This document shows positions 20,410 to 44,594 of a DNA stretch of 44,977 nucleotides, piece after piece. The notes beneath the pieces were generated by a model. The model ran no database searches and had not been told where the DNA came from. It saw only the letters and a list, made by a program, of their open reading frames with translations. This DNA is from Lachnospiraceae bacterium (lineage in GTDB: Bacteria; Bacillota; Clostridia; Lachnospirales; Lachnospiraceae), in the NCBI GenBank assembly GCA_017626095.1, contig JAGAJL010000005.1, forward strand, positions 1 to 44,977, read 5' to 3'. The position numbers and the translations under genes are program-made. Position 1 is the first letter of the stretch, and every line of letters begins with the position of its first letter.

Positions 20410-20485
20410 ATTCATTACTATGCCCTGGCAGGACAACGGATTTGTCAAGACTGTCAATCATTCAAGGAAGAAAGGAGGGGGCGTT

Positions 20486-29412: not shown

Positions 29413-29471
29413 AATTATACCATGATATGGATGTTAAAAGTACTATTTCATACAAACAGGGGATAAGAAAT

Positions 29472-30551
29472 ATGAATAAAAATACTCCAATTTCTATATG
29501 TATCATTACAAAAAATGAATGTGACATGTTAAAACAGTGTCTGGAACATATCAAGCCCTATGCCGACGCAGGCAATCATGAAATTGTCATTGTGGATACC
29601 GGTTCTACAGATAATACGGTCGAAATGTGCAAAGCATTCACAGATAAGATTTACTATTTTGAATGGATCAAAGATTTTTCTGCCGCCAGAAACTTTGCGG
29701 CTCAAAAAGCAAGCCATGACTGGATTTTGTGCATTGACAGTGATGAGTATGTTAAAACATGGGACGAAAACGGTTTGCAAAAACATATTTCCGGTAAATT
29801 CAATTTAATCGGAAATATTGTTCAAAGCAACACTTGTGGTTTCGGCGAAAACCAATACCTTTCCGATGATCGGGCATCCCGTTTGTATAATCGCACAGAA
29901 TACCATTTTTGCCGTCCAATTCACGAACAGCTGGAACCATATGACACAAACAAAGGTCATCACTATCAATCGGTTAACATCATCGTAGATCACATGTCAT
30001 ATGCCGGCACTCCGGAAGAACTTAAAGCAAAATCCGAACGAAACATTACCATGCTCAAAGCAGAACTTGCCAAAAACCCACACGATCCCTATATTTTATT
30101 TCAATTAGGTCAAAGCTACTACATGATTGAAGATTATAAAACGGCAAATTACTATTACAATCTCGGTTTATCCGAAGATGTCGATCCCAATCTCGGATAC
30201 GTCAGCACCATGGTAGTTTCTTACGGCTACACTCTGATTAATTTGAAGCAATATGATAAAGCACTTACATTAGAAGGGGTTTACGACACTTTTGGAAATC
30301 GTGCAGATTTTGTTTTCCTGATGGGACTTATTTATCTTAACAACGGATTTATTGAAGAAGCAATTGTTCAGTTCAACAAAGCAACCACATTTGATTTTGC
30401 CAAAGTAGAAGGTGCCAATTCATATCGTGCCTGGTACAACCTCGGTGTCATCTATGAATGCACAGGACATATTGATACAGCAATCCGGCACTATCAAAAA
30501 TGTGGCAATTATGCCCCGGCATTAAAGAGATTGGCTCTGTTAAAAAAATAG
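29472..30551 (+). CDS. SunS-like GT2 glycosyltransferase with TPR tail (copy A)
   Basis: This 359-residue protein has a GT2 domain (1-190): SICIITKNE, IVDTGSTDNT, FSAARNFA, and the metal-binding CIDSDEYV. TPR-like repeats (about 200-355) follow (YILFQLGQSYYMIEDYKTA, VFLMGLIYLNNGFIEEAI, WYNLGVIYECTGHIDTAI). This architecture is shared by peptide and protein glycosyltransferases of the SunS type and is common beside flagellin genes. ATG 29472 has GGGGAT upstream. A related copy follows 122 bases later. Substrate, probably flagellin or a glycan on it, is inferred. Confidence 0.8.
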   Translation: MNKNTPISICIITKNECDMLKQCLEHIKPYADAGNHEIVIVDTGSTDNTVEMCKAFTDKIYYFEWIKDFSAARNFAAQKASHDWILCIDSDEYVKTWDENGLQKHISGKFNLIGNIVQSNTCGFGENQYLSDDRASRLYNRTEYHFCRPIHEQLEPYDTNKGHHYQSVNIIVDHMSYAGTPEELKAKSERNITMLKAELAKNPHDPYILFQLGQSYYMIEDYKTANYYYNLGLSEDVDPNLGYVSTMVVSYGYTLINLKQYDKALTLEGVYDTFGNRADFVFLMGLIYLNNGFIEEAIVQFNKATTFDFAKVEGANSYRAWYNLGVIYECTGHIDTAIRHYQKCGNYAPALKRLALLKK

Positions 30552-30673: not shown

Positions 30674-31729
30674 ATGAATCCAATTTCAATTTGTATTATT
30701 GCCAAAAACGAAGAACGTACTTTAGATAAATGCTTAAGCGCACTGAAACCCATGGATTGTGAAATCATCTTCGTTGATACAGGCTCTACCGACAGCACAA
30801 AACAGATTGCAAAAAAATATACAGATAAAATATATGATTTCACATGGACAGATGATTTTTCTGCGGCACGCAATTTTTCCATATCCAAAACAAGTCATGA
30901 TTGGATTTTAGTCATTGACTGCGATGAATATGTAGAAAACTTCGATATGCAGCAGTTACTTGCATTTACGCATTCCAACAAGGAATCCATCGGTGAAATC
31001 ACCCGTCATGATTTATATGGTTCCAGCACGGATAACTACACCTATACCAGCCTTATTGAACGATTTTTTAACAAAAATCATTTTCATTATTCCCTTCCAA
31101 TTCATGAGCAGATTGTTCCGGTTTCAAGATGCGAATACCAAACATTTCCTGTTCCTGTTTCTATTTTGCACGATGGATACTTTGACAACGAAGAAAAATT
31201 AAAAGCAAAAAACGAACGAAACATCCGCATTTTAGAACAGGCACTTAAAAACAATCCGGATGACGCTTATCTAAATTTTCAAACCGGTCAATCCTATTAT
31301 GGTCTGGAGAAATATGAAATCGCTCTTAGCTATTATCAAAAAGCCTTAGCCCAAGACATTAACTTTGCTTCCGCAGCCGGCAGATCTTTGGTCAATGGCT
31401 GGATAAACTGTCTTAATGAATTACATCGCAGTGAGGAAGCGTTACAAATCCTTGTGCATTACCACGAACTCTGTGACACTTCAGATTTTCTATTGTTAAT
31501 GGGACATGTATATACGAATCTGGGAAGATATGTGGAAGCAGTCGGTGAATATTTAAAAGCCATTCAGGCCCCCAAATGTAATAAGGAAGGTGCTAACAGC
31601 TACCTTCCCTACTATCGAATCGGAATCTTATATGAAGCATTAGGCGATATCAGAACCGCCGCAGTTATGTTTCAAAAATGCGGCGATTATGCTCCGGCAC
31701 AAAAAAAGTTAAAAGAGCTTCTAATTTAA
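30674..31729 (+). CDS. SunS-like GT2 glycosyltransferase with TPR tail (copy B)
   Basis: This 351-residue paralogue of the preceding gene shows the same order: SICIIAKNEE, VDTGSTDSTK, FSAARNFS, VIDCDEYV, then TPR-like repeats (YLNFQTGQSYYGLEKYEIA, LLLMGHVYTNLGRYVEAV, YYRIGILYEALGDIRTAA). Both copies end in CG-YAPA-K-L. They look like an old tandem duplication in which acceptors or sugars may have diverged. CGGAG precedes the start. The 3' end overlaps the convergent CgeB-like gene by 9 bases. Confidence 0.8.
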   Translation: MNPISICIIAKNEERTLDKCLSALKPMDCEIIFVDTGSTDSTKQIAKKYTDKIYDFTWTDDFSAARNFSISKTSHDWILVIDCDEYVENFDMQQLLAFTHSNKESIGEITRHDLYGSSTDNYTYTSLIERFFNKNHFHYSLPIHEQIVPVSRCEYQTFPVPVSILHDGYFDNEEKLKAKNERNIRILEQALKNNPDDAYLNFQTGQSYYGLEKYEIALSYYQKALAQDINFASAAGRSLVNGWINCLNELHRSEEALQILVHYHELCDTSDFLLLMGHVYTNLGRYVEAVGEYLKAIQAPKCNKEGANSYLPYYRIGILYEALGDIRTAAVMFQKCGDYAPAQKKLKELLI

Positions 31730-32893
31730 TTTCCTTAATATTTCCTGCACACGTATGTCATACGTGTGCTTTTCTTTTACCTTTGCATATCCGTTTACAG
31801 CAATCCTTTTTCTTTGATCTTCATGCTCCAGATAATAATCTACCTTCGCATACAAATCTTCCGGTGTTGTATAGAAAACATAATCTTCATCCGGAACAAA
31901 CAAGCCGTTGAAGTCTGCCTGAAAATCAGAAATCAGAAAACCACCGCATCCCATAATGTCAAAAGCTCTTAATGGAATTCCCGAATAGATACTTTTTAAT
32001 GAAATATTTAAATTAATCTTGGAATTTTTGAAAACATAAGGCATTTCATCACAATAATCCACCGGTCCCTTATTATCTGCTCCGGGAATATTCGGTGTTG
32101 CTTCCGGTGTATATAGCTTGAGCGGATATCTCTCAGATAAAGCACTTATAATCTGCGTCCGCTCTCTTGCCGTTGTTTCACGAGCCAGAAAATAATTTGC
32201 ATACATCCATGCTTCCGATTGCATTTCATCCGGATCTATTTCTATCGGACATACATTCTGCAATTCTACCAGTATACCGGGATTTAGAAATTTCTCCAAA
32301 ATCGGTACCGCATAGGATTGAAGCTGAAGCTGAATCAATGTCTCCAAAAACTGCTGTACCTGTGGTGCAACTCCACTGAGATTTTTCATCAAATCCTGAC
32401 GAGCCTCTGTATACATGGAGCCGACAAAAGATATATCCGATTCATATTCCGTCCTATTTGAAAAACCGCAGTACATCTTGTCATACAAATCCACCGGCGC
32501 TGCCATAGGAAGATAATGAATGGTTTCCACGCCTTTACTTTTTAGTTCGTCAACAACTGCATCGTCAAAGCAAAAAGCAACATTTGTCGGCAGCTTAATC
32601 GTCATAGAATACAAATACATAAACGGACTGTCATAGGTCCAGGAAACATATTTCAGATTTGCTTTATTGGAAGCTATCGCAACTGCCGGAAAGAAATTAA
32701 ATGAAAATACAAATTCATATTCTCCACCCAAAAGGCATTCCGTCAAGTTGTTTTCAAATATTTCATCGCGGCGCATGCTGACCTTTCCGTATGGTAATGG
32801 ATACATCTCCACCTGCAATCCAACTTTTTGAAAACTCGCACAAATATATTCCTCACCGAAACAATCCCACTGCAAATACAATACTTTTCCCAT
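31721..32893 (-). CDS. CgeB-like glycosyltransferase
   Basis: This 390-residue protein has the two-part CgeB layout. The N-terminal DUF3880-like half has NLKYVSWTYDSPFMYLY. A GT-B C-terminal half has YVFKNSKINLNISLKSIYSG, then IPLRAFDIMGCGGFLISD and the terminal PEDLYAKVDYYLEHED. CgeB-type enzymes modify spore coats or surface proteins; near flagellin genes they are often flagellar glycosyltransferases. ATG 32893 with GGGAGG upstream is preferred over a start at 32908. No terminator is visible and its end overlaps the convergent gene. Confidence 0.75.
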   Translation of the reverse strand: MGKVLYLQWDCFGEEYICASFQKVGLQVEMYPLPYGKVSMRRDEIFENNLTECLLGGEYEFVFSFNFFPAVAIASNKANLKYVSWTYDSPFMYLYSMTIKLPTNVAFCFDDAVVDELKSKGVETIHYLPMAAPVDLYDKMYCGFSNRTEYESDISFVGSMYTEARQDLMKNLSGVAPQVQQFLETLIQLQLQSYAVPILEKFLNPGILVELQNVCPIEIDPDEMQSEAWMYANYFLARETTARERTQIISALSERYPLKLYTPEATPNIPGADNKGPVDYCDEMPYVFKNSKINLNISLKSIYSGIPLRAFDIMGCGGFLISDFQADFNGLFVPDEDYVFYTTPEDLYAKVDYYLEHEDQRKRIAVNGYAKVKEKHTYDIRVQEILRKLN

Positions 32894-33024
32894 GACAGAA
32901 CCTCCCATCTAAACAATACTCTACCATAGTTTCTCCTATTTTTCTACAATTCGGAAAAGCACCGGTCAGATAGTGTTAACAAATGAATTTTCATGCCGAC
33001 ATGAATCCTTTGCTCCAATCGCAT

Positions 33025-33078: not shown

Positions 33079-33891
33079 TTACTGAAGTAAAGCTAATACG
33101 CCCTGGTTAGCCTGATTAGACTGAGCAAGCATTGACTGACCTGCCTGAGCAAGGATGTTTGCGTTGCTGAATTTAACCATCTCTGTAGCCATATCTGTAT
33201 CACGGATACGAGATTCAGCTGCTGTAGTATTTTCAACTACGTTGTCCAGGTTGTTGATTGTGTGCTCTAAACGGTTCTGTTTAGCACCAAGCTCTGATCT
33301 CCAAGAAGAAATCTTCTCAAGACCTGCTTTAACATTAGCAATAGCTGTTTTTGCACCTGAGTTTGTAGAAATCTTAATTGCAGTACCACCAACAACACCT
33401 GAAGCTGTTAATGTATGTGCTGTAATCGAAATATTCTGATCTTTTGATTCTGCTCCAACGAATATAGCTCTTGCCTTGCTGTTGAAAATCTTCTGACCAT
33501 TGAATGTTGTATCACTACCGATACGATTGATTTCTGTGTTCAACTGTGAAATTTCGTCGTTGATATAGGTGATCTGTGTAGAGCTGTTTGTTCCATTTGC
33601 AGCCTGAACTAACAATTCGTTCATACGCTGTAACATATCCTGAACTTCAGATAATGCACCTTCAGCTGTCTGTGCAAATGAGATACCATCCTGTGCGTTT
33701 CTGGAAGCCTGTGTAAGACCTCTGATCTGGCGTCTCATTGATTCTGAAATAGATAAACCTGCTGCATCATCTGCTGCACGGTTAATTCTATAACCAGAAG
33801 ATAATTTTTCAGTTGACTTTGTCTGTGCGCTTGCTGTTAAACCTAACATTCTGTTTGAGTTGAGCGCTCTCATATTGTGTTGTACTACCAT
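33079..33891 (-). CDS. hag: Flagellin (short form)
   Basis: This 270-residue flagellin begins MVVQHNMRALNSNRMLG. It has conserved D0/D1 helices at both ends (SGYRINRAADDAAGLSISE, then AAESRIRDTDMATEMVKFSN). Only about 60 residues lie between them, so the exposed D2/D3 domains are absent. The TLR5-recognised region LQRMNELLVQAANGT (about 88-102) is close to the consensus. Several Ser/Thr residues in the central segment could take O-glycans from the neighbouring transferases. Expression is from a sigma-28 promoter with a structured leader. A sole small flagellin is usual for Lachnospiraceae; other copies may exist elsewhere. Confidence 0.97.
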   Translation of the reverse strand: MVVQHNMRALNSNRMLGLTASAQTKSTEKLSSGYRINRAADDAAGLSISESMRRQIRGLTQASRNAQDGISFAQTAEGALSEVQDMLQRMNELLVQAANGTNSSTQITYINDEISQLNTEINRIGSDTTFNGQKIFNSKARAIFVGAESKDQNISITAHTLTASGVVGGTAIKISTNSGAKTAIANVKAGLEKISSWRSELGAKQNRLEHTINNLDNVVENTTAAESRIRDTDMATEMVKFSNANILAQAGQSMLAQSNQANQGVLALLQ

Positions 33892-34085: not shown

Positions 34086-36380
34086 TTAAATCGAAATATT
34101 TTGTATCATCACCGGCAATCCAAGCTTTTTAAACGCTTGCACCAGGTCGGAAGTATCCCCATAATACGCATCATACAGTGAAATCAGGGATGAAGCATCA
34201 GGTGTATCATCAAAAATTCCCCAGCCGCCGGAGCAATACTTTTCCTGAAGCGCCTGATATTTTTTCCACAATTTGGGATTTGTCTTTTCAATTGCCGACC
34301 GAATTCCGGGATGCGGACGCCATATTAAAGCAATATCCTTTTGTTCCTGAAACACCGCAAAGGTCTTTTCTATTTTTTCCAGCATCTTTTCTTCGTGTTC
34401 CAGCAGCGTACCCAGTCCGGTAGCATATAAAACAGCTTTCTTCTTTTTCCCCTCAGCATCATATAAAACACGCTGCCAGTCTTTGGGCAAATCGTTTTTA
34501 TCAATTTCTTTGCACATAGAATCCTGTATCGGCGAGCCCAAACCACAAATTTTATCTTCCCAGATTGATTTTGTATCTGCTCCGGCAAATTCGGTCAATG
34601 CATTTACATAGGTATTCTTCATCTGTTCTGACTGGACAATCACCCGGTCGGCATGTACAACCCCCGGAACCGTACAAAAATATTCCAGTGTCTTAACCGC
34701 CCTTTCATCGGAAGGCTTTATTTCGTCAATCAAAAAATAAGGAATATAAACCAGATTATCTGTGTAATTCTTTAAGTTCTTAGCATAAAAGAACGGAGGT
34801 ACTGTTATGGTTGCATTATATTCATCATAAGGATTTTGAAAGAAAATCACATCTGGTCTGTGCAATCCAAAATCAAACGTATTATAATCGGTTATTGTCA
34901 AATCTTTCGGATATGCGCTTAGGTCAAAATGCATGCCCCCCATTGAACCATCCAAATTTTTATCATAATAGGGAAGCGGAATGACATATACATCTGTATT
35001 TTCATCCTGTATCGCAGCATTCCATACACTTTCCATCGCATTCCATGTTTCCCCTTTAAAGGGCAGAAATACGACTTCTTTTTTCGATAACAACTGCTTA
35101 TCAATCCCTGACGTCATGCGTTTTAAAATATCATCCAATATATCCTTCAGAATGGTTCCGTCAACATCTCCTTCAGATAATACTGTTTCATGAATATTAT
35201 ACAAAATCTCACAATACTCTTCCAAAAGTTTTACCGCTTCAAAACCTTCACCTTTTACCTCTTCCATTTTAGTCCCCAGTGCAATGGCTCCGTCCTGACA
35301 ATCTTCACACAATGCTACGACATTCTGCCAATCTCCGGTTAATGCAGAATGACACATATCTATATGTGCCGCACCAAATATATGCACCATATTCTGTGCA
35401 ATGGACTTTAATGAGCCGGCTTCATCCGATTCTGTCCGGCACAAATCGTCTTTGGAAAAACAGTATTTTTTTAAAAGAGGTGCATGTGACTGCTCATAAA
35501 AATCTTCCTGCCGTTTATAAAAAGGGTATTCATGAGCTCCACCATCCCGTACTGACTTCATATAATCATGATATTTAATGCTAAGTATAGTATCATAACC
35601 AATCGGAATTGGTATGGTAGTAACCTCAAAAGGAACATACATAACATCCTGGTAGCATTTTTTCGGAATTTTATAATCATTTTGCGTGCGCAATGCCATA
35701 CTCGTCACATATTCAGCATCTTTTTCAGAAAACATGCCACACAATTTATCCGAGAGCATATAAATCTGCCTGCGCAAGGAACGATTCCGATCAAATTTGG
35801 TATCAAATACCGCTTCTAAATCTTCCAGAGTTTTCTCTTTCTCATCGCCCTCCATCAAATCAATACTCTGTGCAATGGTCGTTAATATGGTAATCTGCTC
35901 ACACAACATTTCATCATCTTTTTGCGTTGGTGCCATATAATCTATCGGAAATACATCCATCCCAGCCACGTATGGAAATCCATGAAATTTTTCCAGATAT
36001 GCTTTGTCCATACGAATCCGGTTTCCGGTATATACACGCGTCAGATAGTCATCACATCTGTATTCATCATCATCCGAATGTTCAAAATTGAGCAATTCAT
36101 AGATTTCCGGCAAATCATCCAAAGCAACCCTACAGAATTTTTCATAATCCTCACGAAGCATACCAATATCCATATCATCATCCCATGGCACAAATCCTCC
36201 ATGACGAACAGCACCGAGCATGGTCCCCCACTCTGCAAAGTATTTTATATTGTGTTTTTTGCAGACCTTGTCAATATCTTCCAACACTTCCAACTGTGCT
36301 GCCCAGGCTCGCTTCATCATACCGGAGACGTAAAATCCGTCTCTGACTTCATCTTCAAAATAACTATTCGGAAATTGCAT
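34086..36380 (-). CDS. LicD phosphotransferase fused to a TagF-like polyol-phosphate transferase
   Basis: This 764-residue two-domain protein starts with a LicD domain (about 25-320). It has YFAEWGTMLGAVRHGGFVPW, the DDD-D nucleotidyltransferase motif (WDDDMDIGM, about 67) and MDVFPIDY. A spacer helical region follows (about 330-440). The C-terminal GT-B-like domain (about 440-764) has YIPYFLIDE, WRPHP (about 687) and DAYYGDTSD, like CDP-glycerol/ribitol phosphotransferases. LicD enzymes move phosphocholine or pentitol-phosphate from a CDP donor; TagF/TarL enzymes use CDP-glycerol or CDP-ribitol. The C-terminal 440 residues match the stand-alone protein at 43248-44594. Ribosome site AGAGG. 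Its position between the flagellar operons suggests flagellar modification. Confidence 0.8.
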   Translation of the reverse strand: MQFPNSYFEDEVRDGFYVSGMMKRAWAAQLEVLEDIDKVCKKHNIKYFAEWGTMLGAVRHGGFVPWDDDMDIGMLREDYEKFCRVALDDLPEIYELLNFEHSDDDEYRCDDYLTRVYTGNRIRMDKAYLEKFHGFPYVAGMDVFPIDYMAPTQKDDEMLCEQITILTTIAQSIDLMEGDEKEKTLEDLEAVFDTKFDRNRSLRRQIYMLSDKLCGMFSEKDAEYVTSMALRTQNDYKIPKKCYQDVMYVPFEVTTIPIPIGYDTILSIKYHDYMKSVRDGGAHEYPFYKRQEDFYEQSHAPLLKKYCFSKDDLCRTESDEAGSLKSIAQNMVHIFGAAHIDMCHSALTGDWQNVVALCEDCQDGAIALGTKMEEVKGEGFEAVKLLEEYCEILYNIHETVLSEGDVDGTILKDILDDILKRMTSGIDKQLLSKKEVVFLPFKGETWNAMESVWNAAIQDENTDVYVIPLPYYDKNLDGSMGGMHFDLSAYPKDLTITDYNTFDFGLHRPDVIFFQNPYDEYNATITVPPFFYAKNLKNYTDNLVYIPYFLIDEIKPSDERAVKTLEYFCTVPGVVHADRVIVQSEQMKNTYVNALTEFAGADTKSIWEDKICGLGSPIQDSMCKEIDKNDLPKDWQRVLYDAEGKKKKAVLYATGLGTLLEHEEKMLEKIEKTFAVFQEQKDIALIWRPHPGIRSAIEKTNPKLWKKYQALQEKYCSGGWGIFDDTPDASSLISLYDAYYGDTSDLVQAFKKLGLPVMIQNISI

Positions 36381-36401
36381 GTTACATCCTCTTTACTAAT
36401 G

Positions 36402-36427
36402 AAAGGCACTCAATACAGAGTGCCTTT
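36402..36427 (-). terminator. Terminator after flgN
   Basis: AAAGGCACT (36427-36419) and AGTGCCTTT (36410-36402) pair perfectly. The U-run is short (TTTCATT), so read-through into the LicD-TagF gene, which starts 22 bases later, is likely. Confidence 0.65.
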
Positions 36428-36434
36428 TCAAATT

Positions 36435-36908
36435 TTACTTTTTTTGATCCATAAAAAACGGTTCTACATGATTTAACTGACTGGATGTTTTGTAATAATC
36501 CATAACCGTCTTTGACGATACTTTGCGCTTTGCAAGATCTTGTTTTTGTCTTTTCATAACATTGGTCAACGAATCTTTTGTCCGTGATTCCGTCGCTGCG
36601 ATTTCCGCCCCACGGTCAACCGTTGTACGAATCAGTTGTTGCAATTGCAGGATTTCATCTCTATATTTTTCTTTATTATCCAATAATTCATCCCGGATTC
36701 TGGAAAACGTTGCATCAAATCCCTGATCCAACTCACCCATTTCTTTTAAAAGAACATCTTTTTGATCAAACAACTCATCAAAATGCTCCGAATCAAATTC
36801 TGTCGAATTCGCAAGCTTCTCCTGTTCTTTACTTGCCAATAGAATATTATCCATGATTCCTATCTTTTTTTTCAAAGATTCAATCAATATCTGCAATTCA
36901 TTTGTCAC
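36435..36908 (-). CDS. flgN: FlgN-like flagellar export chaperone
   Basis: This 157-residue protein is almost entirely helical and charged (LIESLKKKIGIMDNILLASK, then DQKDVLLKEMGELDQGFDAT), as expected of FlgN-type chaperones for hook-associated proteins. The start codon is GTG at 36908; GGAG inside the end of fliS serves it, and only 2 bases separate the genes. It lies directly after fliS in a flaG-fliD-fliS order, where FliT or FlgN homologues usually sit. The family call rests on context and helical character; FliT is the alternative. Confidence 0.6.
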   Translation of the reverse strand: MTNELQILIESLKKKIGIMDNILLASKEQEKLANSTEFDSEHFDELFDQKDVLLKEMGELDQGFDATFSRIRDELLDNKEKYRDEILQLQQLIRTTVDRGAEIAATESRTKDSLTNVMKRQKQDLAKRKVSSKTVMDYYKTSSQLNHVEPFFMDQKK

Positions 36909-36910
36909 TT

Positions 36911-37294
36911 TTAAGACTCCTTCTCAGTCTGCTTCATAATCTCTTTCCATGTATCGCGAATCATACGACTATATTCCAACGCTCTCTCAAGCTCCGCTGA
37001 GTCTTTTTTTACATTTCCCTGAATCAATGCCTGCATAATGCACTTGTATATATTTTCAAAATCCTGCGCAACCGGATATTTGTGATTTAGAGTTCCATTC
37101 AGGTGATCGACAATACGCTCAGCCTTTATAATATTGGTATTTGCCTTTTGATAATCTTTTTCCTGTATCGCAACAATCGCAATATTTGTGAATTTAATAA
37201 TTCCTTCATACAACATCAAAGTAAGCTCTGCCGGCGAAGCTGTCAATACCTTACTGTTTTGATATTGCGCATAAGTATTCCCAATAATTGCCAT
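36911..37294 (-). CDS. fliS: Flagellin export chaperone FliS
   Basis: This 127-residue protein has the family signatures YQNSKVLTASPAELTLMLYE near the start and AERIVDHLNGTLNH in the middle. FliS binds the flagellin C-terminus and prevents early polymerisation. It is in the usual place between fliD and flgN, and its 31-base spacing from fliD indicates one transcript. Confidence 0.95.
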   Translation of the reverse strand: MAIIGNTYAQYQNSKVLTASPAELTLMLYEGIIKFTNIAIVAIQEKDYQKANTNIIKAERIVDHLNGTLNHKYPVAQDFENIYKCIMQALIQGNVKKDSAELERALEYSRMIRDTWKEIMKQTEKES

Positions 37295-37325
37295 AATTTA
37301 TACTCCTTGTACTATAGGATAAATA

Positions 37326-38846
37326 CTATTGTGAACCACCAAGCAATCCACTAAGCGCACTCTGCTTTGAAGACAATTTTGCCAATGCAGTTTCCATTGC
37401 AGAAAATTTCTTATACCACTTATCCTCATAGTCATTCAGTTTATCTTCCGCATCAGATATTTTGGTTGTATAACTGCTCAACTCTGAATCCATCTGCTTG
37501 TCATTGTAAACCTTGTACATACTCTTATAGCCTTCCACACGGCTCATAGAATTTGTCATGGCCTTATATAAATTATTGGATAACTGTGTAAAGAAACTCT
37601 TTACTGTATTCGGATCACTTGCAATCATGGATTTTAACGTATCTTCTTTCGTCGATGTATTGCTATCATCCGGATCTCCATTGATGTGATATGCATGTCT
37701 TTCATTTTCTTCAGCGTTAAAGTAGCCCAATGTATTAATTCCAAAGCTGGATAAGTACATGGTCTTTCCACCGACTGTGATTCCCTCTGCCATCGCTGAT
37801 GTCATGGAAGAAATCACAGAGCTCAAAGACGAATCCTTGCGCAATAACGAATCTTTAATCTTCTTTTCCCAGTCGGATATTTCTGTCTCGGTCAATGCTT
37901 CTTTTTCTTCTGACAGCAAAGGTTCATATCCTTTGGAAGATGACGCATTATACATCTTATCCATTTCATTGATTAACTTATTGTATTCTGACAAAAAGTT
38001 CTTAATAGTATCATAAATACCGTCATAATCATCTGTTGTGGTAATGGTACTTTCCTTAAATGATCCATCTGCATTCTTTTCAGAAACACTTTCCAATGTA
38101 TAAGTAGATCCATTTATTTGAAAAGTATTGGTTGATGATTCAAACTTGGCATTATTCAAATACATAACCGCATCTGCGCCATCAATTTTTACCGCACCGT
38201 ATGCATTGTCCGGGTCTTCAACCAGTCCTAATTTCTTTAACGCATTCTCATCACCGGAGAAAGAAAAATCATATGCGGCACCGGTTGATTTTGCACTGAC
38301 AAATAATCTCTGCTGACCTTCATCAAAACTTGCATTTACGCCTGCTTTTTGCAATTGTGAAACTAAACTGTTCACAGTTGTATTTTCATCGATTGTAATA
38401 TCCGTTTTGTTCCCCTGGGATGTAAAGCTGATGGTATCACCTGCCGTAATTCCCAAATCAACCAGCTTGGTTGAACCGGATACTTTACTGCCATCTGCCT
38501 GCTGCATTTTTCCGCCTGTCAAATATGCGGCTTTTGCAAGGCTCTCAACAGCTACCGTCTGAACCCCGTTTGCCGCATTGCTACCGGCTACGACAGACAA
38601 TAACCCATTGGCAGATACACTTGTTTTTTTCTTGTTGTATGCGGTATCCCACCGCATTTTATCAACAACACCGGTATATAAGCTGTATATTTTACTGTTT
38701 AATTCTTTCCAGGCATCAATCTTCCAGCTTAATTTTGTCTGTGCCTTTTTAATACTGTTAACAGAAGTCTTTTTGGCACTGACAAGCTGAGTAATGATGC
38801 TTTCCGTATCCAATCCGGAATTTAATCCTGTCATTCTGATTGCCAT
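37326..38846 (-). CDS. fliD: Flagellar filament cap protein FliD
   Basis: This 506-residue protein begins MAIRMTGLNSGLDTESIITQ, the standard FliD start. It has FliD_N (VAVESLAKAAYLTGG), a central domain and FliD_C (STITTTDDYDGIYDTIKNFL, then YNKLINEMDKMYNA and the coiled-coil end SDAEDKLNDYEDKWYKKFSA). Five or six copies cap the filament so flagellin can fold. I chose ATG 38846 because AGGAGG precedes it. It follows flaG closely (11 bases). Confidence 0.95.
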   Translation of the reverse strand: MAIRMTGLNSGLDTESIITQLVSAKKTSVNSIKKAQTKLSWKIDAWKELNSKIYSLYTGVVDKMRWDTAYNKKKTSVSANGLLSVVAGSNAANGVQTVAVESLAKAAYLTGGKMQQADGSKVSGSTKLVDLGITAGDTISFTSQGNKTDITIDENTTVNSLVSQLQKAGVNASFDEGQQRLFVSAKSTGAAYDFSFSGDENALKKLGLVEDPDNAYGAVKIDGADAVMYLNNAKFESSTNTFQINGSTYTLESVSEKNADGSFKESTITTTDDYDGIYDTIKNFLSEYNKLINEMDKMYNASSSKGYEPLLSEEKEALTETEISDWEKKIKDSLLRKDSSLSSVISSMTSAMAEGITVGGKTMYLSSFGINTLGYFNAEENERHAYHINGDPDDSNTSTKEDTLKSMIASDPNTVKSFFTQLSNNLYKAMTNSMSRVEGYKSMYKVYNDKQMDSELSSYTTKISDAEDKLNDYEDKWYKKFSAMETALAKLSSKQSALSGLLGGSQ

Positions 38847-38857
38847 AGTAAAACCTC

Positions 38858-39271
38858 CTATCTCTTTTCGTCCACTAAAATACCAGCCATTTCCCAAACC
38901 TTGGCAATCATATCCAACGTTTTTTCAGGCGGTAATTCTTTAATGACCTTTTTACTCTCTTTATCAATAATTTTAATTGTGACGCGGTTTGTCTTATCAT
39001 GAATGCCAAATACAGCCTCTGAATTTGGCATACTTTTATTCAGCTTTTCTACCGCCTGTTTAATCTGCTCGTTACTCGGCTGATTCTGTCTGCTGTCATT
39101 GGCAGCGCCTTCTTCTTTTTTATTGACTTCATTTACAATCGAAGTCTTTAAGTCAGGGGCCTTTTCTGCCTGTACGCTTGCTTCCGTGCTCGCTACCGGC
39201 TGAACAGGTTCAACTTTTTGTGCAGTCTGGGCCTGCACACTCATAATACTTCCTAATGGTTCAATTGCCAT
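38858..39271 (-). CDS. flaG: FlaG-family flagellar protein
   Basis: This 137-residue protein has a variable N-terminus (about 1-75, Ala/Glu/Gln-rich). The conserved FlaG core is VFGIHDKTNRVTIKIIDKES, then KVIKELPPEKTLDMIAKVWE ending GILVDEKR. FlaG influences filament length. The start at 39271 has GGAGGTGG upstream. It is the first gene of flaG-fliD-fliS-flgN and follows a perfect sigma-28 -10 box. Confidence 0.9.
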   Translation of the reverse strand: MAIEPLGSIMSVQAQTAQKVEPVQPVASTEASVQAEKAPDLKTSIVNEVNKKEEGAANDSRQNQPSNEQIKQAVEKLNKSMPNSEAVFGIHDKTNRVTIKIIDKESKKVIKELPPEKTLDMIAKVWEMAGILVDEKR

Positions 39272-39352
39272 ATCTTCCACCTCCATGTGAAATAATTAAT
39301 AATCGTTTCTGCGCCTACTCATATATCTGCTCTAATGCACTTCCTAACATTT

Positions 39353-39360
39353 TTATCGGC
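39353..39360 (-). promoter_or_regulatory. Sigma-28 -10 element of flaG-fliD-fliS-flgN
   Basis: On the minus strand, GCCGATAA (39360-39353) is an exact sigma-28 -10 box. The -35 is weak; TTAT stands at the right distance. The leader would be about 75 bases. Confidence 0.65.
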
Positions 39361-39418
39361 TAGAATTTTTAAAAAATAATAGCTTGTAAAAAAAAATCCA
39401 AAAATTACATAATAAATA

Positions 39419-39586
39419 TTACAAGGTTATCTCACCTTTCAATTGGTTATATAAACAATAATTATAAATATTTTCACCGACAACCATAGAAACATCCTGT
39501 CCTTCAACAGCCATCTTTTCTTTTTCACTTTCTACAATCTTATTTGTCTTACAAACATTATCATAACTTTGATTTTCAATTTTCAT
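39419..39586 (-). CDS. Small hypothetical ORF, possibly part of a decayed gene
   Basis: A 55-codon frame reads MKIENQSYDNVCKTNKIVE ... VVGENIYNYCLYNQLKGEITL. It has no convincing ribosome site and follows the DUF4422 relic, so it may be a remnant from the same decay. No family recognised. Confidence 0.25.
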   Translation of the reverse strand: MKIENQSYDNVCKTNKIVESEKEKMAVEGQDVSMVVGENIYNYCLYNQLKGEITL

Positions 39587-39599
39587 TTTAATACTTATA

Positions 39600-39623
39600 T
39601 GATAATTAGGAAGTTAATTATCA
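39600..39623. repeat. Perfect inverted repeat in the flaG-dehydrogenase gap
   Basis: TGATAATTA (39600-39608) and TAATTATCA (39615-39623) are separated by 6 bases. No U-run follows on either strand. Role unknown. Confidence 0.5.
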
Positions 39624-39655
39624 CACGTTCCTTTCTTTTTAATACAATTCAGATA

Positions 39656-39952
39656 CTATGGACTTTTGATTTTCACCTCATGGTGAACTTCAATATTAGG
39701 TTCATATGGCATGGGATAGGGAAGAATCGCGTCAATATCGTCATCACATAATCTCAGTATATCATCATCTGATAGATGAAGAAGTCTTCTATAATGAGCC
39801 AACCTATAATAATTCTGAGGATTCGAATCCTTAATAATTCTATTTTTCCAAATCCAATATAACCCTGTTAATTCTGAAAAATTCTTATTTTTTCCAGAAA
39901 TACTATCCCCTTCGTCATCATAGAAATCTGCTTTTTTCCTAATCGAAATATT
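39656..39952 (-). pseudogene. Fragment of a DUF4422-type glycosyltransferase
   Basis: A 98-codon open frame without an ATG start reads DDEGDSISGKNKNFSELTGL, then YWIWKN, YYRLAHYRRLL, DDIDAILPYPMPYEPNIE and HHEV before a stop. DUF4422 proteins show the order DDTGDNIS-KN-F-ELT-YW-WKN, HYRR, ILP. The N-terminal strand and the C-terminal half are absent, so this is a truncated relic. It shows that the surface-glycan content of this region has turned over. The frame lies between flaG and the dehydrogenase gene and has no promoter of its own. Confidence 0.65.
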
Positions 39953-39977
39953 TTATATTGCTATTTCTCTATATAAC

Positions 39978-40015
39978 AAAAAATGCAAAACCTCTAGTTT
40001 TTCTCAGACTTTGCA
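39978..40015 (-). terminator. Terminator of the rpe-ispD-like-dehydrogenase operon
   Basis: TGCAAA (40015-40010) and TTTGCA (39989-39984), with an inner CT/AG pairing, are followed by TTTTTTG. The stem begins right after the stop codon of the dehydrogenase gene. Confidence 0.7.
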
Positions 40016-40016
40016 C

Positions 40017-41078
40017 TTAATCACATATTTTTCCAATCACTTTCATATAATCCTCTGACTTATCTCTCATGATACGCATGCCATTTTCTAAGTGCTCCAT
40101 ATCATACTTATGAGAAATAAACAGTTCTGGTTTAATCATCTTACTTTTCAACAATTCAACCACATATTCCCAATCTGTTTTCGAACCATCTTCGTTCCCA
40201 TAAAAAAAAGAAGAATTCCATGTACCTATAATTTTCAACTGATTTCGTAATATTTTCCAATAAACCTGCTTACTAAGTGTTATATCCAAATACGGATTGC
40301 CAACCATGCAAATCTTTCCACCTGGAGTTGTCAGGCACAAGGCTTGCTCAACCGTTTCATTTTTTCCTACACATTCAAAGAATACATCGGCACCGGCTTC
40401 AGTATATTTGGAAATCCATTCTACTACGTCTTCCTTGCGCATATCACAAAAATAATCTTCTGGCACACCTAGCAATAACGCACTTTCCTTTTGCAAATCC
40501 TTATTACCAATAACTAAAACTTTTTTAATTCCACGAGCTAACAAAAACATAGTCAACAAAAGTCCTATTGTTCCAAGACCACAAACTACAACAATATCAT
40601 CTTGTTTTACTTCTATCCTGCGTATTGCATGTACCGCTACAGCCATCGGTTCAAGCATTGCTGCTTGTTCCCAAGTCACTTCATTGGGTAAGTCAATCAG
40701 ATTTGCGGTAGGCACAGCCACATACTCAGCAAATGCGCCATTTCTTCTAGATCCAAGATAGCTATAGTTTCTACACATCTCATGTCTGTTCATTTTACAT
40801 GCAATGCATTGATTACAAGGGATTAATGGAAAAACACCAACTCTTTTTCCCAACCAAACGTTATTATTCTCATTCCCAAGTCCAACTACTTGTCCGGCGA
40901 ATTCATGTCCGAGAATTAAAGGCATCTTGTGTGCTCCATCACGATAGATTCTCGGAATATCCGAACCACAGATACCCACAGCCTTCACTTTTACCAATAC
41001 TTCATTTTTAGCTGGCACAGGTTGTGTCACATCTTCAAATCTTATGTCATTTATATCATGCAAAACCCATGCTTTCAT
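40017..41078 (-). CDS. Zinc-dependent polyol(-phosphate) dehydrogenase, TarJ-like
   Basis: This 353-residue medium-chain dehydrogenase has the catalytic-zinc residues in VGICGSD and GHEFAG. Structural-zinc cysteines lie in CNQCIACKMNRHEMC and the Rossmann motif is GLGTIG (about 167). The neighbour is an IspD/TarI-like cytidylyltransferase, so the likely reaction is reduction of a ketopentose-5-phosphate to a pentitol-5-phosphate, as by TarJ. The rpe-like gene upstream leaves open xylulose-5-phosphate as substrate. It starts 3 bases after the preceding stop and ends at a terminator. A sorbitol- or threonine-dehydrogenase-like role is possible if the context misleads. Confidence 0.75.
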   Translation of the reverse strand: MKAWVLHDINDIRFEDVTQPVPAKNEVLVKVKAVGICGSDIPRIYRDGAHKMPLILGHEFAGQVVGLGNENNNVWLGKRVGVFPLIPCNQCIACKMNRHEMCRNYSYLGSRRNGAFAEYVAVPTANLIDLPNEVTWEQAAMLEPMAVAVHAIRRIEVKQDDIVVVCGLGTIGLLLTMFLLARGIKKVLVIGNKDLQKESALLLGVPEDYFCDMRKEDVVEWISKYTEAGADVFFECVGKNETVEQALCLTTPGGKICMVGNPYLDITLSKQVYWKILRNQLKIIGTWNSSFFYGNEDGSKTDWEYVVELLKSKMIKPELFISHKYDMEHLENGMRIMRDKSEDYMKVIGKICD

Positions 41079-41081
41079 TAA

Positions 41082-41783
41082 TCACTCTATCCTCTCTTCC
41101 ACAATATGACGAAATCTCTCAAGATCAGCTTTTGTTGTTATTTTAAAATTATTTTCATCCCCATGAATCATTGCAACATTCAGCCTTGCCATAATTGCCG
41201 GCTCTGTAGAACCACTAATCAGTCTAATTTGTTCCGGCATTAATCTCTCATTTGCTTTTAAATATTTTCCTAACAAAAAACATTCTGGTGCTTGTCCAGC
41301 AAATATTATGCTCCGATTCAACAAAGATGAGATTCTTTTTCCATCTTCACTCATATATACAGTATCTTTCATATGCAAAACCGGAAGCACCCCATCATAT
41401 CCGGTTAATGCAGAAAAACAATCCGAAATCAAACGTTTGGATAATAATGGCCGTGCTGCATCATGCACTACAACTACATCATCTTCTTGAGCATACCTTA
41501 TAACATCATTCAGACCATTGTAAATCGATAGTTGCCGACTATCTCCAGGTAAAGAAAACCCTCGAAACTTGTGTTTAACATCTGATGTTTGCAACCATTT
41601 TTCAAATTTAGATTGCCATTTTTCATCTGCCACAATCTGAATAGCATCAATCTTATCACATTCAGACATAGTCTTAATACAATACGAAACAATCGGTTTG
41701 CCTGCAACTTCTATATATTGTTTAGGAATATCAGTTCCCATCCGGCTCCCAATACCACCAGATAAAATAAGCCCAATGTTCAT
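41082..41783 (-). CDS. Pentitol-5-phosphate cytidylyltransferase, IspD/TarI-like
   Basis: This 233-residue protein has LSGGIGSRMGTDIPKQYIEV at the N-terminus (the nucleotide-binding loop of the IspD family), VVHDAARPL about residue 100, and a C-terminal NNFKITTKADLERF. Beside a TarJ-like dehydrogenase this is more likely a TarI/Bcs1-type enzyme making a CDP-pentitol than the isoprenoid enzyme IspD. I use ATG 41783 (MNIGLILSGG) rather than TTG 41798. The start lies 4 bases past the rpe stop and GAGG in the end of that gene serves it. Confidence 0.75.
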   Translation of the reverse strand: MNIGLILSGGIGSRMGTDIPKQYIEVAGKPIVSYCIKTMSECDKIDAIQIVADEKWQSKFEKWLQTSDVKHKFRGFSLPGDSRQLSIYNGLNDVIRYAQEDDVVVVHDAARPLLSKRLISDCFSALTGYDGVLPVLHMKDTVYMSEDGKRISSLLNRSIIFAGQAPECFLLGKYLKANERLMPEQIRLISGSTEPAIMARLNVAMIHGDENNFKITTKADLERFRHIVEERIE

Positions 41784-41787
41784 CCCT

Positions 41788-42456
41788 TTAATCCTCAAAT
41801 TTTAAAGTTCTAATATCTTTTAATGTTTCTGCATACGGCTTATCCTTGCCAAACAAAAGGGTAGTTCCAAGCACAAATCCTTTTACTCCTTTTGGTGCAA
41901 ACTCTTGTATACGCTTAGCACTGCATGCCCCATCCCAATAAAGATCAAATCCCATTTCTTCTTTTAGCTCCAAAAGTTTATCAATTTTTCTACCAACATA
42001 AGGCAAATACATTTGACCTGCATTACCCGGATTTACCGACATAACTAATATTTTTTTAACAATACGAAGCATCTCCATAACCGTCTCAACAGAAGTGCCC
42101 GGATTAATTGCAATACCCGGAATCATACCTTTATCTATAATTGCTTGCAATGTAGTAGATGGATGATACTCAGCTTCTGGGTGAATATAGACAGTGTCCC
42201 CTTCTCGCAGGTTATCCAAGAATAATCTGATATGAGTATTAGGATGTTCAATCATTAAATGTACATCCATCGGTTTCCTAGTTGCCTTAGCAATAAACTT
42301 AAGGTCATTTAATGACATCGCATAATTTGGTACATAACGACCATCCATGATATCAATATGAAATGAATCAATTCCACCTTTTTCTAAATCATGTACTTCT
42401 TTCTCTAAATTTCCATAGTTTGCGCACATCATAGATGCCATCAATTCAAAATCCAT
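41788..42456 (-). CDS. Ribulose-phosphate 3-epimerase-like protein
   Basis: This 222-residue TIM-barrel protein has the family landmarks FHIDIMDGRYVPN (about 31-43), DVHLMIEHP, VNPGNAGQMYLP and WDGACSAKRI in place of the usual VDGG. The catalytic aspartates and metal-binding histidines of RPE appear to be kept, though Trp precedes the second Asp. It interconverts ribulose- and xylulose-5-phosphate. As first gene of an operon with a pentitol dehydrogenase and cytidylyltransferase it probably supplies that pathway rather than central metabolism. Confidence 0.8.
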   Translation of the reverse strand: MDFELMASMMCANYGNLEKEVHDLEKGGIDSFHIDIMDGRYVPNYAMSLNDLKFIAKATRKPMDVHLMIEHPNTHIRLFLDNLREGDTVYIHPEAEYHPSTTLQAIIDKGMIPGIAINPGTSVETVMEMLRIVKKILVMSVNPGNAGQMYLPYVGRKIDKLLELKEEMGFDLYWDGACSAKRIQEFAPKGVKGFVLGTTLLFGKDKPYAETLKDIRTLKFED

Positions 42457-42494
42457 TTTATTCCCCTTTTATCTATAGAATGTATCTCATATAT

Positions 42495-42523
42495 ATTATA
42501 CCCCCATGCCTAAAAAACGGCAA
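42495..42523 (-). promoter_or_regulatory. Sigma-A promoter of the rpe-like operon
   Basis: TTGCCG (42523-42518) and TATAAT (42500-42495) with a 17-bp spacer lie about 35 bases before the start codon. So this operon is not under sigma-28. Confidence 0.7.
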
Positions 42524-42816
42524 TCTTATATTACATTCCATCATTTCCTCTGCATTATGCTACAAACAATTACTTCTCCTTATATACTATCTTTGATAAT
42601 ATGTATCACATATCTTTGCAATGCACAATTGTAATATAAAAGACATAACACTGTACAAAATTATCTTCGGACAATGAATTACCATCATAATCTTTTAGTT
42701 TATCCACAAAAGAAAAACACAACTTAATTATTTCTAATTCCTTGACTATATTGAATCGTTTCTCATCACAGAAAATAAGAGTTCAAATAATCACCAACTT
42801 ATTCACAGTTATTTCT

Positions 42817-42996
42817 TTACAAAAGAACTACATAGGATACTCCGTCAAATTCGAGCTTTTCACAATTCAAAACATCAGAGAATCCACTGTCACCACGAAG
42901 AACATGTGGTATACCAGAATAATCCTGATTCAACTCATAAATTATAAGCACGTCGAAATAGGAAGAAAGATTTTCACCATCGAAATTAATTCCAAT
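42817..42996 (-). pseudogene. Relic of an IS1380-type transposase
   Basis: A 59-codon frame on the minus strand contains HVLRGDSGFSDVLNCEKLE and GVSYVVLL. This matches the RGDSGFA-E-CE-YVIRL segment around the second catalytic Asp of IS1380-family transposases. Stops bound it on both sides, and related text seems to continue upstream in other frames. No inverted terminal repeats were found. The whole 42524-43247 stretch is AT-rich and otherwise empty of convincing genes. Confidence 0.5.
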
Positions 42997-43247
42997 CTAC
43001 CTATATATTCAGTGATAAGGTGTTTACAATACTCATATAGGGCTCCTTTTGGGTTATTATTAAAGATTGAGTACCTTAATTATATCACAAATGGATGCTC
43101 TTTTTTCATTCACTTGATAAGTGAAATGAAGTATTTAGCAAAAATACAGTAAGTATATAGCACTCAGACACTGGTACGACGAAGTCGTAAATAATTCAAG
43201 TTAATAAATATTATTATTTCAATCTCCAAAGAATTTCTAGGGCATTT

Positions 43248-44594
43248 TCACTCTAATACATCCACATTCTGCACCATAACCGGCACCCTTGCCTTTTTAC
43301 ACAATTGTATAACACTGCTGAGGTCTCCATAATATGCATCGCACAGTTTGATTGCCCGTTCCAAATCCGTTGTATCATCATAAATTCCCCAACCATCTTC
43401 CCTGTACGAAGTAATAATTTTTTTATATCTCTCCCAGAGCTCCGTTCGCATGGATTTAATCGTTGCTATCATCAATGGATGTGGTCTCCACAAAAGAGCA
43501 ATATCATCCTGTTTCTCTCGGAATGTCTGTAAAACATTCTCTATTTTATCAAGCATTGCTTCTTTATGCTCCAGCATACTTACCAGACCGGTGTTATAGA
43601 GTATGACTTTCTTTTTTGTTCCGTCCGCTTTATAGAGTATCTTTTTCCATTCTTCCGGCACCTGAACATCTATGGAATCATCCAATACCCTGTCAAATTT
43701 TGGAGAGCCAAGCCCCAGTATCTTCTTTTCCCATACAGCTCTGGATGCTTCTCCTGCCCACTCCGTTAACACATCAATATAAACCTGACGCATTTTTTCC
43801 GATTGCACAATGACCAAATGGGAATTTGCCACTCCGGGAAGGGTACAAAAATGCTTCATTCCCTGAACAGCTATTTTATTTTTCGGATCAATTTCATCAA
43901 GCACAAAATACGGAATGTACACCAACTGATCTGTCAAATTTTTCAGCTTTAAGGAATAAAAAAAAGGATGGACACTGGTTACCCGATTGCATTCGTCATA
44001 GGGATTATGTATAAAAATCATATCCGGGCGTCTTTTGGCAAAATCATAATTTTGATAATCTGTAATTGGTACGTAGTCCGGGAACTGCTCACCTTCATAA
44101 TGCATATCCGCAAAACTGCCGTCCGGATTCTTGTCATAATATGGAATCGGCATAACAATTGCATCACAATCAGGATCAGAATCTGCCGCTTTCCATACAC
44201 TCTCTAAACTATCCCACATAGATGCCTTATATGGGAGAAAGACAGCGATTTTTTTAACAGGAATGTCATTCCTAATACTTTGTTCTATTTTGTTTAAGCT
44301 CTTTGATATCTTTTTATGGGTTGAAATCGCATCAGCAAAACCATTTTCCATGATATCTTCATGGATTTGATAGATTTCCTCACAAAATTCTTCAATGTAT
44401 GAAACAGTAACAAATCCTTCTCCTTCGCATTCCTCAATCGAAGTTCCCAGCTGTATTGCTGCGTCCTGACATTGTTCCAAAATATCCAATGCAGATTCAA
44501 ACTGTCTTTTTTCAATTGCTTTTTTTATTTCATCATTTGCCCAAAGCAAGATGTGAAACATTTCGTCAATCTGCTTTTTGTTCTGTTTATACAT
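43248..44594 (-). CDS. Stand-alone TagF-like polyol-phosphate transferase domain protein
   Basis: This 448-residue protein has a helical N-terminus (1-110, MYKQNKKQIDEMFHILLWAN) and a GT-B-like domain. It is clearly homologous to the C-terminal part of the LicD fusion: YIPYFVLDEI, GLGSPKFDRVL, YNTGLVSMLEHKE, WRPHP about 368, GIYDDTTD, DAYYGDLSSV. The WRPHP and DAYYGD motifs correspond to the R-HP and D-SS signatures of TagF/TarL CDP-polyol phosphotransferases. No LicD domain is present. It is directly behind a sigma-28 promoter, so it should be made with flagellin. Ribosome site GGGAAAAG. Confidence 0.7.
   Translation of the reverse strand: MYKQNKKQIDEMFHILLWANDEIKKAIEKRQFESALDILEQCQDAAIQLGTSIEECEGEGFVTVSYIEEFCEEIYQIHEDIMENGFADAISTHKKISKSLNKIEQSIRNDIPVKKIAVFLPYKASMWDSLESVWKAADSDPDCDAIVMPIPYYDKNPDGSFADMHYEGEQFPDYVPITDYQNYDFAKRRPDMIFIHNPYDECNRVTSVHPFFYSLKLKNLTDQLVYIPYFVLDEIDPKNKIAVQGMKHFCTLPGVANSHLVIVQSEKMRQVYIDVLTEWAGEASRAVWEKKILGLGSPKFDRVLDDSIDVQVPEEWKKILYKADGTKKKVILYNTGLVSMLEHKEAMLDKIENVLQTFREKQDDIALLWRPHPLMIATIKSMRTELWERYKKIITSYREDGWGIYDDTTDLERAIKLCDAYYGDLSSVIQLCKKARVPVMVQNVDVLE

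Follow-up and report, generated by a model that had tools for sequence, protein, structure and literature searches.

A candidate CDP-pentitol donor cassette and LicD-TagF-like transferases in a Lachnospiraceae flagellin locus

We analyzed a stretch of 44,977 nucleotides (the window) from contig JAGAJL010000005.1 of a Lachnospiraceae bacterium (GCA_017626095.1), in which three candidate donor-synthesis genes (the trio), a gene fusing LicD and TagF-like domains and a solo TagF-like gene surround flagellin. The genome is G000 in our numbering; other G-numbers are further Lachnospiraceae genomes and L-numbers are stretches retrieved from them. We suggest, with a probability of roughly 0.55, that this locus decorates the flagellar glycan by means of a cytidine diphosphate (CDP)-activated small phospho-group and a transferase, the trio providing CDP-pentitol as an exchanged cassette and LicD carrying out the transfer. 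The Rpe paralogue of the trio would interconvert ribulose-5-phosphate and xylulose-5-phosphate, the dehydrogenase would reduce a pentulose-5-phosphate, yielding the 5-phosphate of a pentitol (ribitol, xylitol or D-arabinitol), and the IspD/TarI-like enzyme would turn the latter into CDP-pentitol. Glycosyltransferases of the GT2-TPR and DUF3880 types would put a sugar on flagellin, onto which the LicD domain of the fusion would move the pentitol-phosphate. The solo TagF-like protein probably does so too, and the TagF-like half of the fusion may be a docking or scaffold domain. We infer all of these chemical steps, as well as the exact pentitol, the acceptor and the flagellin modification itself.

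A sequence-only reading of the window had placed donor genes, LicD and TagF-like domains within the flagellin locus. This is borne out, since all the open reading frames (ORFs) it named, along with the flagellar genes they enclose, are present at the positions given here. From 45 to 31 kb, the minus strand carries the solo TagF-like gene (43248..44594), rpe (41788..42456), the TarI/IspD-like gene (41082..41798), the dehydrogenase gene (40017..41078), flaG, fliD, fliS, a flgN-like gene, the LicD-TagF-like fusion (34086..36380), fliC (33079..33891) and a DUF3880 glycosyltransferase gene, beyond which two GT2-TPR glycosyltransferase genes lie on the plus strand. Because rpe and tarI overlap by 11 bases (41798/41788) and tarI is separated from the dehydrogenase gene by 3 bases (41082/41078), the trio is plausibly one transcript. 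It is flanked by gaps of ~0.8 kb to the solo gene and ~0.7 kb to flaG.

The cytidylyltransferase of the trio was considered as the main methylerythritol phosphate (MEP) enzyme and rejected in that role, its PF01128 match of 113.6 bits being exceeded by another IspD of the genome (C53, 188.1 bits). The trio Rpe (pentulose-phosphate 3-epimerase-like; PF00834, 155.1 bits) likewise has a stronger counterpart (C42, 231.1 bits), and because of these stronger copies we regard the IspD-like and Rpe genes of the trio as extra copies. In the PDB, the cytidylyltransferase finds ribitol-5-phosphate cytidylyltransferases first (Staphylococcus aureus TarI, 4jis, 1.9e-28) and MEP cytidylyltransferases after them (1vpa, 1.7e-20), in line with the IspD/TarI-like identity proposed earlier for its gene. 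In a tree of 54 rows, built without ORFs shorter than 180 aa and those of about 330-350 aa and more, the trio-type TarI sequences group in a clade of 31 rows supported at 98/99, a subfamily of their own that includes neither the three solved TarI proteins nor a further clade of tandem genes from Lachnospiraceae. The third protein, in the TarJ role, resembles Zn-dependent polyol-phosphate dehydrogenases (PF08240/PF00107), with galactitol-1-phosphate 5-dehydrogenase as its best PDB match (3.6e-52). From these similarities, a CDP-polyol is a well supported product of the trio and CDP-pentitol a likely one, ribitol being one candidate among ribitol, xylitol and D-arabinitol. The earlier proposal of CDP-pentitol synthesis therefore stands for the CDP-polyol, but the pentitol is unproven, as both NCBIfam cut-offs are missed by the cytidylyltransferase and it falls into a clade of its own.

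The trio could also make a different CDP-polyol, such as a CDP-hexitol, by means of a hexulose-6-phosphate epimerase and a hexitol-phosphate dehydrogenase, with the flagellar use unchanged. This is what the best match of the dehydrogenase, the presence of D-allulose-6-phosphate 3-epimerase among the epimerase matches and the distance of the TarI-like clade from known TarI would favor. On the other hand, Rpe outscores the allulose enzyme both in NCBIfam (164.7 vs 143.1 bits) and in the PDB (2fli, the best match, 1.3e-29 vs 3ct7 5.2e-26), and the solved TarI proteins are the nearest ones to the cytidylyltransferase, so that we consider a hexitol unlikely, although worth keeping in mind. Literature matches listed for CDP-arabinitol or CDP-pentitol pathways were mostly unrelated.

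In the fusion protein, residues 40-270 form a LicD domain (PF04991, 115.2 bits against a cut-off of 22.6) containing PWDDDMD, an instance of the metal motif PWDDDxD that is kept in 29 of 30 fusions, and the domain looks catalytically competent by sequence. FKRP, which uses CDP-ribitol, is the sole solved protein matching it at E<=1 (1.2e-6, over 41 residues), which agrees with the link to ribitol-phosphate transferases drawn in the sequence-only reading. The LicD domain is followed by a four-helix bundle and a TagF-like GT-B domain, and the secondary structure of the model shows four helices and an alternating pattern as in the second domain of the solo protein. This C-terminal part of the fusion is a homologue of the solo protein (45% identity).

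The two differ in their motifs. The solo protein has the conserved HNPYD, GSPK, RPHP and YYGDxSS, and the window fusion reads QNPYD (the first His being replaced by Gln), RPHP and YYGDTSD. Omitting rows gapped at the motif in question, the His of HNPYD is found in 110 of 112 non-fused rows vs 2 of 26 LicD-fused rows, that of RPHP in 111/111 vs 6/18, and GDxSS in 100/111 vs 1/18. By analogy with TagF, the His residues of HNPYD and RPHP are presumably catalytic. Because the first of them is lost in 24 of the 26 fused rows, the TagF-like half of the fusion is probably inactive, and we favor reading the protein as a LicD transferase that carries a degenerate TagF-like domain for docking or as a scaffold, rather than as the two transferases initially seen in it. 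If both halves were active, they might add a first and a second phospho-group, and the RPHP and YYGDTSD retained in the window fusion would suit such a function; but with the first His missing here as in nearly all fused rows, and the other two motifs drifting as expected of an inactive domain, we find this very unlikely. No description of a LicD domain joined to an inactivated TagF-like domain was recognized among the literature matches listed. Separately, genome G178 contains seven tandem LicD-TagF fusions (L070:3113-17595), whose RPHP and GDxSS parts are unaligned and whose C-terminus is shortened or very divergent.

For the 448-aa solo protein, the TagF-like label was at first suspected to be false. 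Neither the solo nor the fused window protein matches the TagF/TarL family PF04464 at E<=0.001, the solo one not even at E<=1; no Pfam or NCBIfam match supports the label for either of them, and a PDB sequence search with the solo protein or a family profile returned no TagF. This suspicion was overturned by profile comparison, bridging relatives and predicted fold. The hhalign comparison against PF04464 gives a probability of 92.9 and an E-value of 3.6e-7 (80.2 and 1.4e-5 for a narrower alignment), spanning the C-terminal half only. Eleven of 26 relatives match PF04464 at E<=1 (best 1.6e-7), and 504-aa relatives that pass its cut-off of 22.1 with 52 and 40.4 bits score 239 and 233 bits against the window solo protein. 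The predicted structure consists of a four-helix bundle and a GT-B domain, the latter with a fold like that of TagF/TarL. Thus, the TagF-like identity of the window proteins, as assigned in the sequence-only reading, holds only indirectly: it is upheld by these three lines and not by direct Pfam, NCBIfam or PDB sequence matches. The solo protein is probably an active CDP-donor phosphotransferase, to judge from its motifs. Forms of the TagF-like protein of about 800-900 aa also occur (L150, L050 and other loci); two of them have no Pfam match at E<=0.01, second half included.

Within the genus, the transferase and the donor genes behave differently. All 9 genomes match the fusion query, 5 of them nearly full length (G000, G086, G201, G204, G205), and trio-type TarI is found in 2 of 9 (G000, G206). 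The flagellar-locus donor sets among the nine are the trio in 2, an IspD-like tandem in 2 and a phosphoenolpyruvate (PEP)-mutase/phosphonopyruvate-decarboxylase set in 2, two of these six being contig-split. In G206, fliC, rpe and two LicD-TagF fusions share one contig, and tarI-tarJ are on another one starting with a TagF-like end, adjacency being assumed. In the sister genome G086, a two-gene IspD-like tandem stands just before flaG, separated by a multi-gene island from the solo gene, which directly follows an 871-aa flagellin (L036:6497-9109). In G201 a tandem of this kind is just before fliC (L287) and LicD-TagF is on another contig (L278). G204 and G205 encode a PEP mutase-cytidylyltransferase fusion (PF13714 and PF01467 in both; TIGR02320 in G205, 399.6 against a cut-off of 319.55), a phosphonopyruvate decarboxylase (TIGR03297, 443.5 and 442.3 against 312.5) and a TagF-like gene that passes PF04464. 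These genes form one run between flgN and LicD-TagF (L280:9435-18854, L279:8714-18188); fliC lies beside it in G205, and the G204 stretch ends at fliS.

Window and sister share 98.8% identity in the fusion, 99.6% in FliC and 93% in the solo protein, and their donor genes differ. The trio as a fixed partner of the fusion is refuted by this nearly identical fusion facing other donor genes and by the other members of the genus. The better reading appears to be a constant LicD-TagF transferase with a donor cassette interchangeable between species, the direction of exchange being inferred. Between trio and flaG, the window has a remnant of a DUF4422 glycosyltransferase gene (39659..39937, minus strand; PF14393, 5.9e-17 on the fragment), and an intact DUF4422 gene is found in the sister island, upstream of its IspD tandem (L037:5428-6558, 4.8e-44); the window lineage may once have had an island like that of the sister, lost it and acquired the trio. 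A broader proposal, which we make tentatively and hold at a little under even odds, is that of a modular flagellar phospho-/phosphono-decoration, in which the conserved LicD-(inactive TagF) protein and an active TagF-like partner would accept varied groups activated by CDP or cytidine monophosphate (CMP), with donor cassettes being exchanged. The accepted groups would be pentitol-phosphate, another IspD-type product, or phosphonate, and the PEP-mutase pathway in the flagellar cluster of G204 and G205 is a candidate genetic source of flagellar phosphonate.

Across the family, we examined 200 Lachnospiraceae genomes drawn evenly, with one genome per species. Trio-type TarI was delimited at 170 bits, a line of our own that falls into the gap from 174.6 to 127.3 bits, and the neighborhood stretches, clipped by contig ends, measure 4.6-20 kb. 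The TagF-like family is present in 40 of the genomes and trio-type TarI in 26, and both occur together in 19 vs 5.2 expected (Fisher p 2.1e-10, or 7.7e-10 without the window's own genome). In 7 of the 26, trio-type TarI and a TagF-like gene or LicD-TagF are within one stretch (G000, G041, G092, G100, G112, G116, G153), and in G119 and G146 they are ~20 kb apart on one contig. Flagellin shares the stretch with trio-type TarI in 6 of the 26 (G000, G041, G042, G060, G116, G166). The cleanest case is G116, with the order flaG-fliD-fliS-flgN-(LicD-TagF)-rpe-tarI-tarJ-fliC-fliC; in G100, rpe adjoins the TagF-like gene and tarI-tarJ are 5.4 kb further. In G060 (L214), a flagellin-like ORF of 1824 aa was observed upstream of rpe.

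These neighborhoods also bear on which protein uses the product of the trio. LicD is a candidate user because in the trio stretches of G112, G092 and G116 the sole TagF-like protein found is a fusion whose TagF half is degraded. The solo protein may be a user as well, since the trio of G153 and G100 is accompanied by a solo TagF-like gene in a stretch where no LicD is seen. From the side of the TagF-like family, the even draw provided 46 stretches (the 50 regions L036-L085 minus L081-L084, which have no TagF-like ORF above 60 bits): 13 have an IspD-type and 10 a TagD-type cytidylyltransferase, 21 have either, and 14 have fliC or fliD. The chance rate for an IspD-type gene in a stretch is ~1% by our own estimate from 1-2 such genes per 3-Mb genome. 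We regard the solo TagF-like family as a general surface-locus enzyme that is flagellar in part only.

Alternatively, the trio and the TagF-like gene might work for a polymer of the cell wall or capsule, in which case their flagellar placement would be incidental. Most trio and solo TagF-like loci of other genomes have no flagellin in the stretch, and genes above the PF04464 cut-off exist elsewhere in the window's own genome (C18). However, the LicD-TagF genes of the genus are inside a fliD/fliS/flgN/fliC cluster in G000, G086, G205 and G201 (beside flgN/fliS in G204), with the donor cassette in those same loci or, for G201, on the flagellin contig. G041 and G116 show this arrangement as well, and the sister solo gene comes directly after a flagellin gene. 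We therefore find a wall or capsule role distinctly unlikely for the window locus.

The acceptor could be Ser/Thr of flagellin itself instead of its glycan. The LicD and flagellin genes are neighbors, and Ser and Thr make up 50 of the 270 residues of FliC (PF00669/PF00700), which we presume either to be the acceptor or to carry the acceptor glycan. Yet three candidate flagellin glycosyltransferase genes adjoin fliC, namely the DUF3880/Glyco_trans_1_2 gene (31721..32908, minus strand; PF13524, PF12996) and the two GT2-TPR paralogues (30674..31729 and 29427..30551, plus strand; PF00535 and TPR), and in the Clostridioides difficile precedent the phospho-group is on N-acetylglucosamine (GlcNAc); direct modification of Ser/Thr seems to us highly unlikely.

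Several observations weigh against flagellar decoration through CDP-pentitol. The genome is 86.6% complete, 383 bp separate the solo gene from the end of the contig, and a strict sigma-28 consensus scan gave 0 matches. The cytidylyltransferase stays below the NCBIfam cut-offs both for IspD (TIGR00453, 149.1 of 181.3) and for D-ribitol-5-phosphate cytidylyltransferase (NF001183, 139.6 of 166), Rpe is below its own (164.7 of 212.6), and the dehydrogenase is below every one listed (galactitol-1-phosphate 5-dehydrogenase, 214.3 of 550); dehydrogenase and epimerase also resemble hexitol/hexulose-phosphate enzymes. The structure model of the fusion is weaker, with a mean predicted local distance difference test score (pLDDT) of 76.6 and a predicted template modeling score (pTM) of 0.50. 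The co-occurrence expected in the sequence-only reading is found for trio-type TarI with the TagF-like family, but trio, TagF-like gene and flagellin come together in one stretch in just 3 of 26 genomes (G000, G041, G116), and in the 19 other trio stretches phmmer detected a TagF-like gene in none. For the 80 nearest named relatives of the solo protein, the stretch contains fliC or fliD in 5 cases and an IspD- or TagD-type cytidylyltransferase in 8, which suggests that the solo family works mostly in other surface loci. The genus itself is not uniform: in G202, fliC is accompanied by a LicD gene (with a weak TagF-like match), but no cytidylyltransferase of these types was found in its retrieved stretches, and in G200 and G203 the stretches around the TagF-like genes contain no flagellar gene.

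The remaining flagellar genes of the locus, all on the minus strand, are flaG (38858..39286; PF03646), the cap gene fliD (37326..38897; PF02465/PF07195), fliS (36911..37294; PF02561) and the gene of a FlgN-like chaperone (36435..36908; PF05130, below cut-off). Between the solo TagF-like gene and rpe there is a possible transposase remnant (42820-42996; PF13701, E 0.0054, below cut-off). A second, divergent gene containing FliD_C is located further away on the plus strand (20420-21793), adjoined by a PseF-like gene with a HAD-like C-terminus (22037-23047, weak match), and a weak HipA_C-like match below cut-off is found with a resolvase-type helix-turn-helix at 25732-27027. A loose sigma-28 scan with GCCGATAW was uninformative (67 matches vs 55.9 expected, reached by 8 of 100 shuffles), and Rfam returned nothing at gathering scores for the window between 20 and 45 kb.

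In 31 of 130 retrieved TagF-like stretches, a TnpB-like protein of 434-504 aa is encoded 1-3 genes upstream (L156:8383-9747 and 30 others, L101-L180; L043). The three positions that we take to be the RuvC catalytic ones are all replaced in 31/31 of these proteins. The TnpB-like gene is followed, ahead of the TagF-like gene, by a guide-RNA-like stretch with conserved blocks; when one such stretch was folded, its stability hardly exceeded that of shuffled versions (z -1.51, equaled by 16 of 200). Within it, AAYCCTTATGAT, matching the TagF-like HNPYD codons, is present in 6 of 7 loci of one type and in 0 of 24 of the other, and many of these 24 loci have a conserved ACCAATATNCCTTATT-like element. 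Searched in four whole genomes with <=1 mismatch, AAYCCTTATGAT gave 7, 8, 2 and 3 matches vs 1 in total for a reversed control, and the element of the other type gave 7 matches in 4 genomes vs 2 for the control, all counted unsorted by gene. Our first idea, guides of a dead TnpB aimed at the HNPYD codons, was set aside, the motif being in one locus type only; the guides may have these codons or other sites as their target. TldR regulators are known for flagellin and csrA, as described in PMC13418256, and the TnpB-like proteins are possibly a TldR clade tied to surface-decoration loci. In the window's genus, one query, searched without a positive control, found such a protein in 0 of 9 genomes.

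The chemistry of flagella matters for motility, for the adsorption of phages and for the immune recognition of commensal flagellins. If our interpretation is true, a family of gut and rumen bacteria varies the charge chemistry of its flagella by exchanging small donor cassettes, two unusual flagellar groups, pentitol-phosphate and phosphonate, gain a genetic route that can be tested, and an enzyme architecture of LicD plus an inactivated TagF-like domain is described.

The kind of system is already known, namely CDP-activated phospho-decoration of flagellin, and this locus is a new variant of it. The statement of the sequence-only reading that no such flagellar modification had been described overlooked C. 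difficile Type A, its 2-aminoethylphosphonate (2-AEP) variant and an enterobacterial ribitol island. Among the literature matches listed, no pentitol-phosphate flagellin or LicD-TagF flagellar transferase was recognized by title or abstract. In Type A, to which the locus comes closest and which is described in PMC10714395, the GlcNAc of FliC is phosphodiester-linked to N-methylthreonine, and the revised model has CDP-threonine as donor and the TagF-like CD0244 as proposed transferase. The Type A cluster (CD0240-CD0244) is adjacent to fliC and comprises a core-sugar glycosyltransferase, a proposed CDP-activating nucleotidyltransferase and a TagF-like transferase; candidates for the glycosyltransferase, the nucleotidyltransferase and the TagF-like transferase are all present beside the window fliC. 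CD0244 is likened to the window family by its published description. The systems differ in the donor, CDP-threonine made with a HAD protein and methylated in C. difficile, and TarI-type, dehydrogenase and epimerase enzymes in the window. No threonine-type gene (CD0241 HAD, CD0243 methyltransferase) is among the Pfam-scanned genes of 31.7-44.6 kb; weak matches to HAD-like (22.0-23.0 kb) and Methyltransf_23 (27.4-29.4 kb) domains are further off.

The phosphonate 2-AEP is reported on the same C. difficile GlcNAc in PMC8861647, whose authors left its origin open. C. difficile was negative in a pepM survey cited there, whereas two species of the window's genus carry PepM in the flagellar locus. 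As in the PntC system of PMC6697681, PepM of G204 and G205 is fused to PF01467 with LicD-like transferases near, but here the set is between flgN and LicD-TagF, and 'flagell' does not occur in the main text of that paper. Likewise, 'LicD' is not in the main text of PMC10714395 or PMC8861647.

Regarding the enzymes, the window shares with the TarIJL/TagF systems of wall teichoic acid the CDP-ribitol or CDP-glycerol logic, the GT-B fold and the C-terminal motifs, and differs from them in missing the Pfam cut-off, in the N-terminal four-helix bundle and in its flagellar location. The window family has HNPYD where six PF04464 relatives have an HG motif, a correspondence that is our own reading. 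With FKRP, fukutin and bacterial LicD it has in common a LicD domain with a DxDxD-type motif, which is here fused to a degenerate TagF-like domain in a flagellar cluster. The Gram-negative TagF-like capsule polymerases of PMC8262930 are also modular multidomain transferases with a TagF-like fold and CDP-polyol donors; as described there, they combine an active TagF-like domain with GT-A or GT-B, unlike the probably inactive one joined to LicD in our fusion. Finally, the enterobacterial flagellin island type 12, for which PMC4875605 predicts ribitol synthesis, resembles the window in this predicted pathway, although it belongs to Gram-negative bacteria and is a prediction only.

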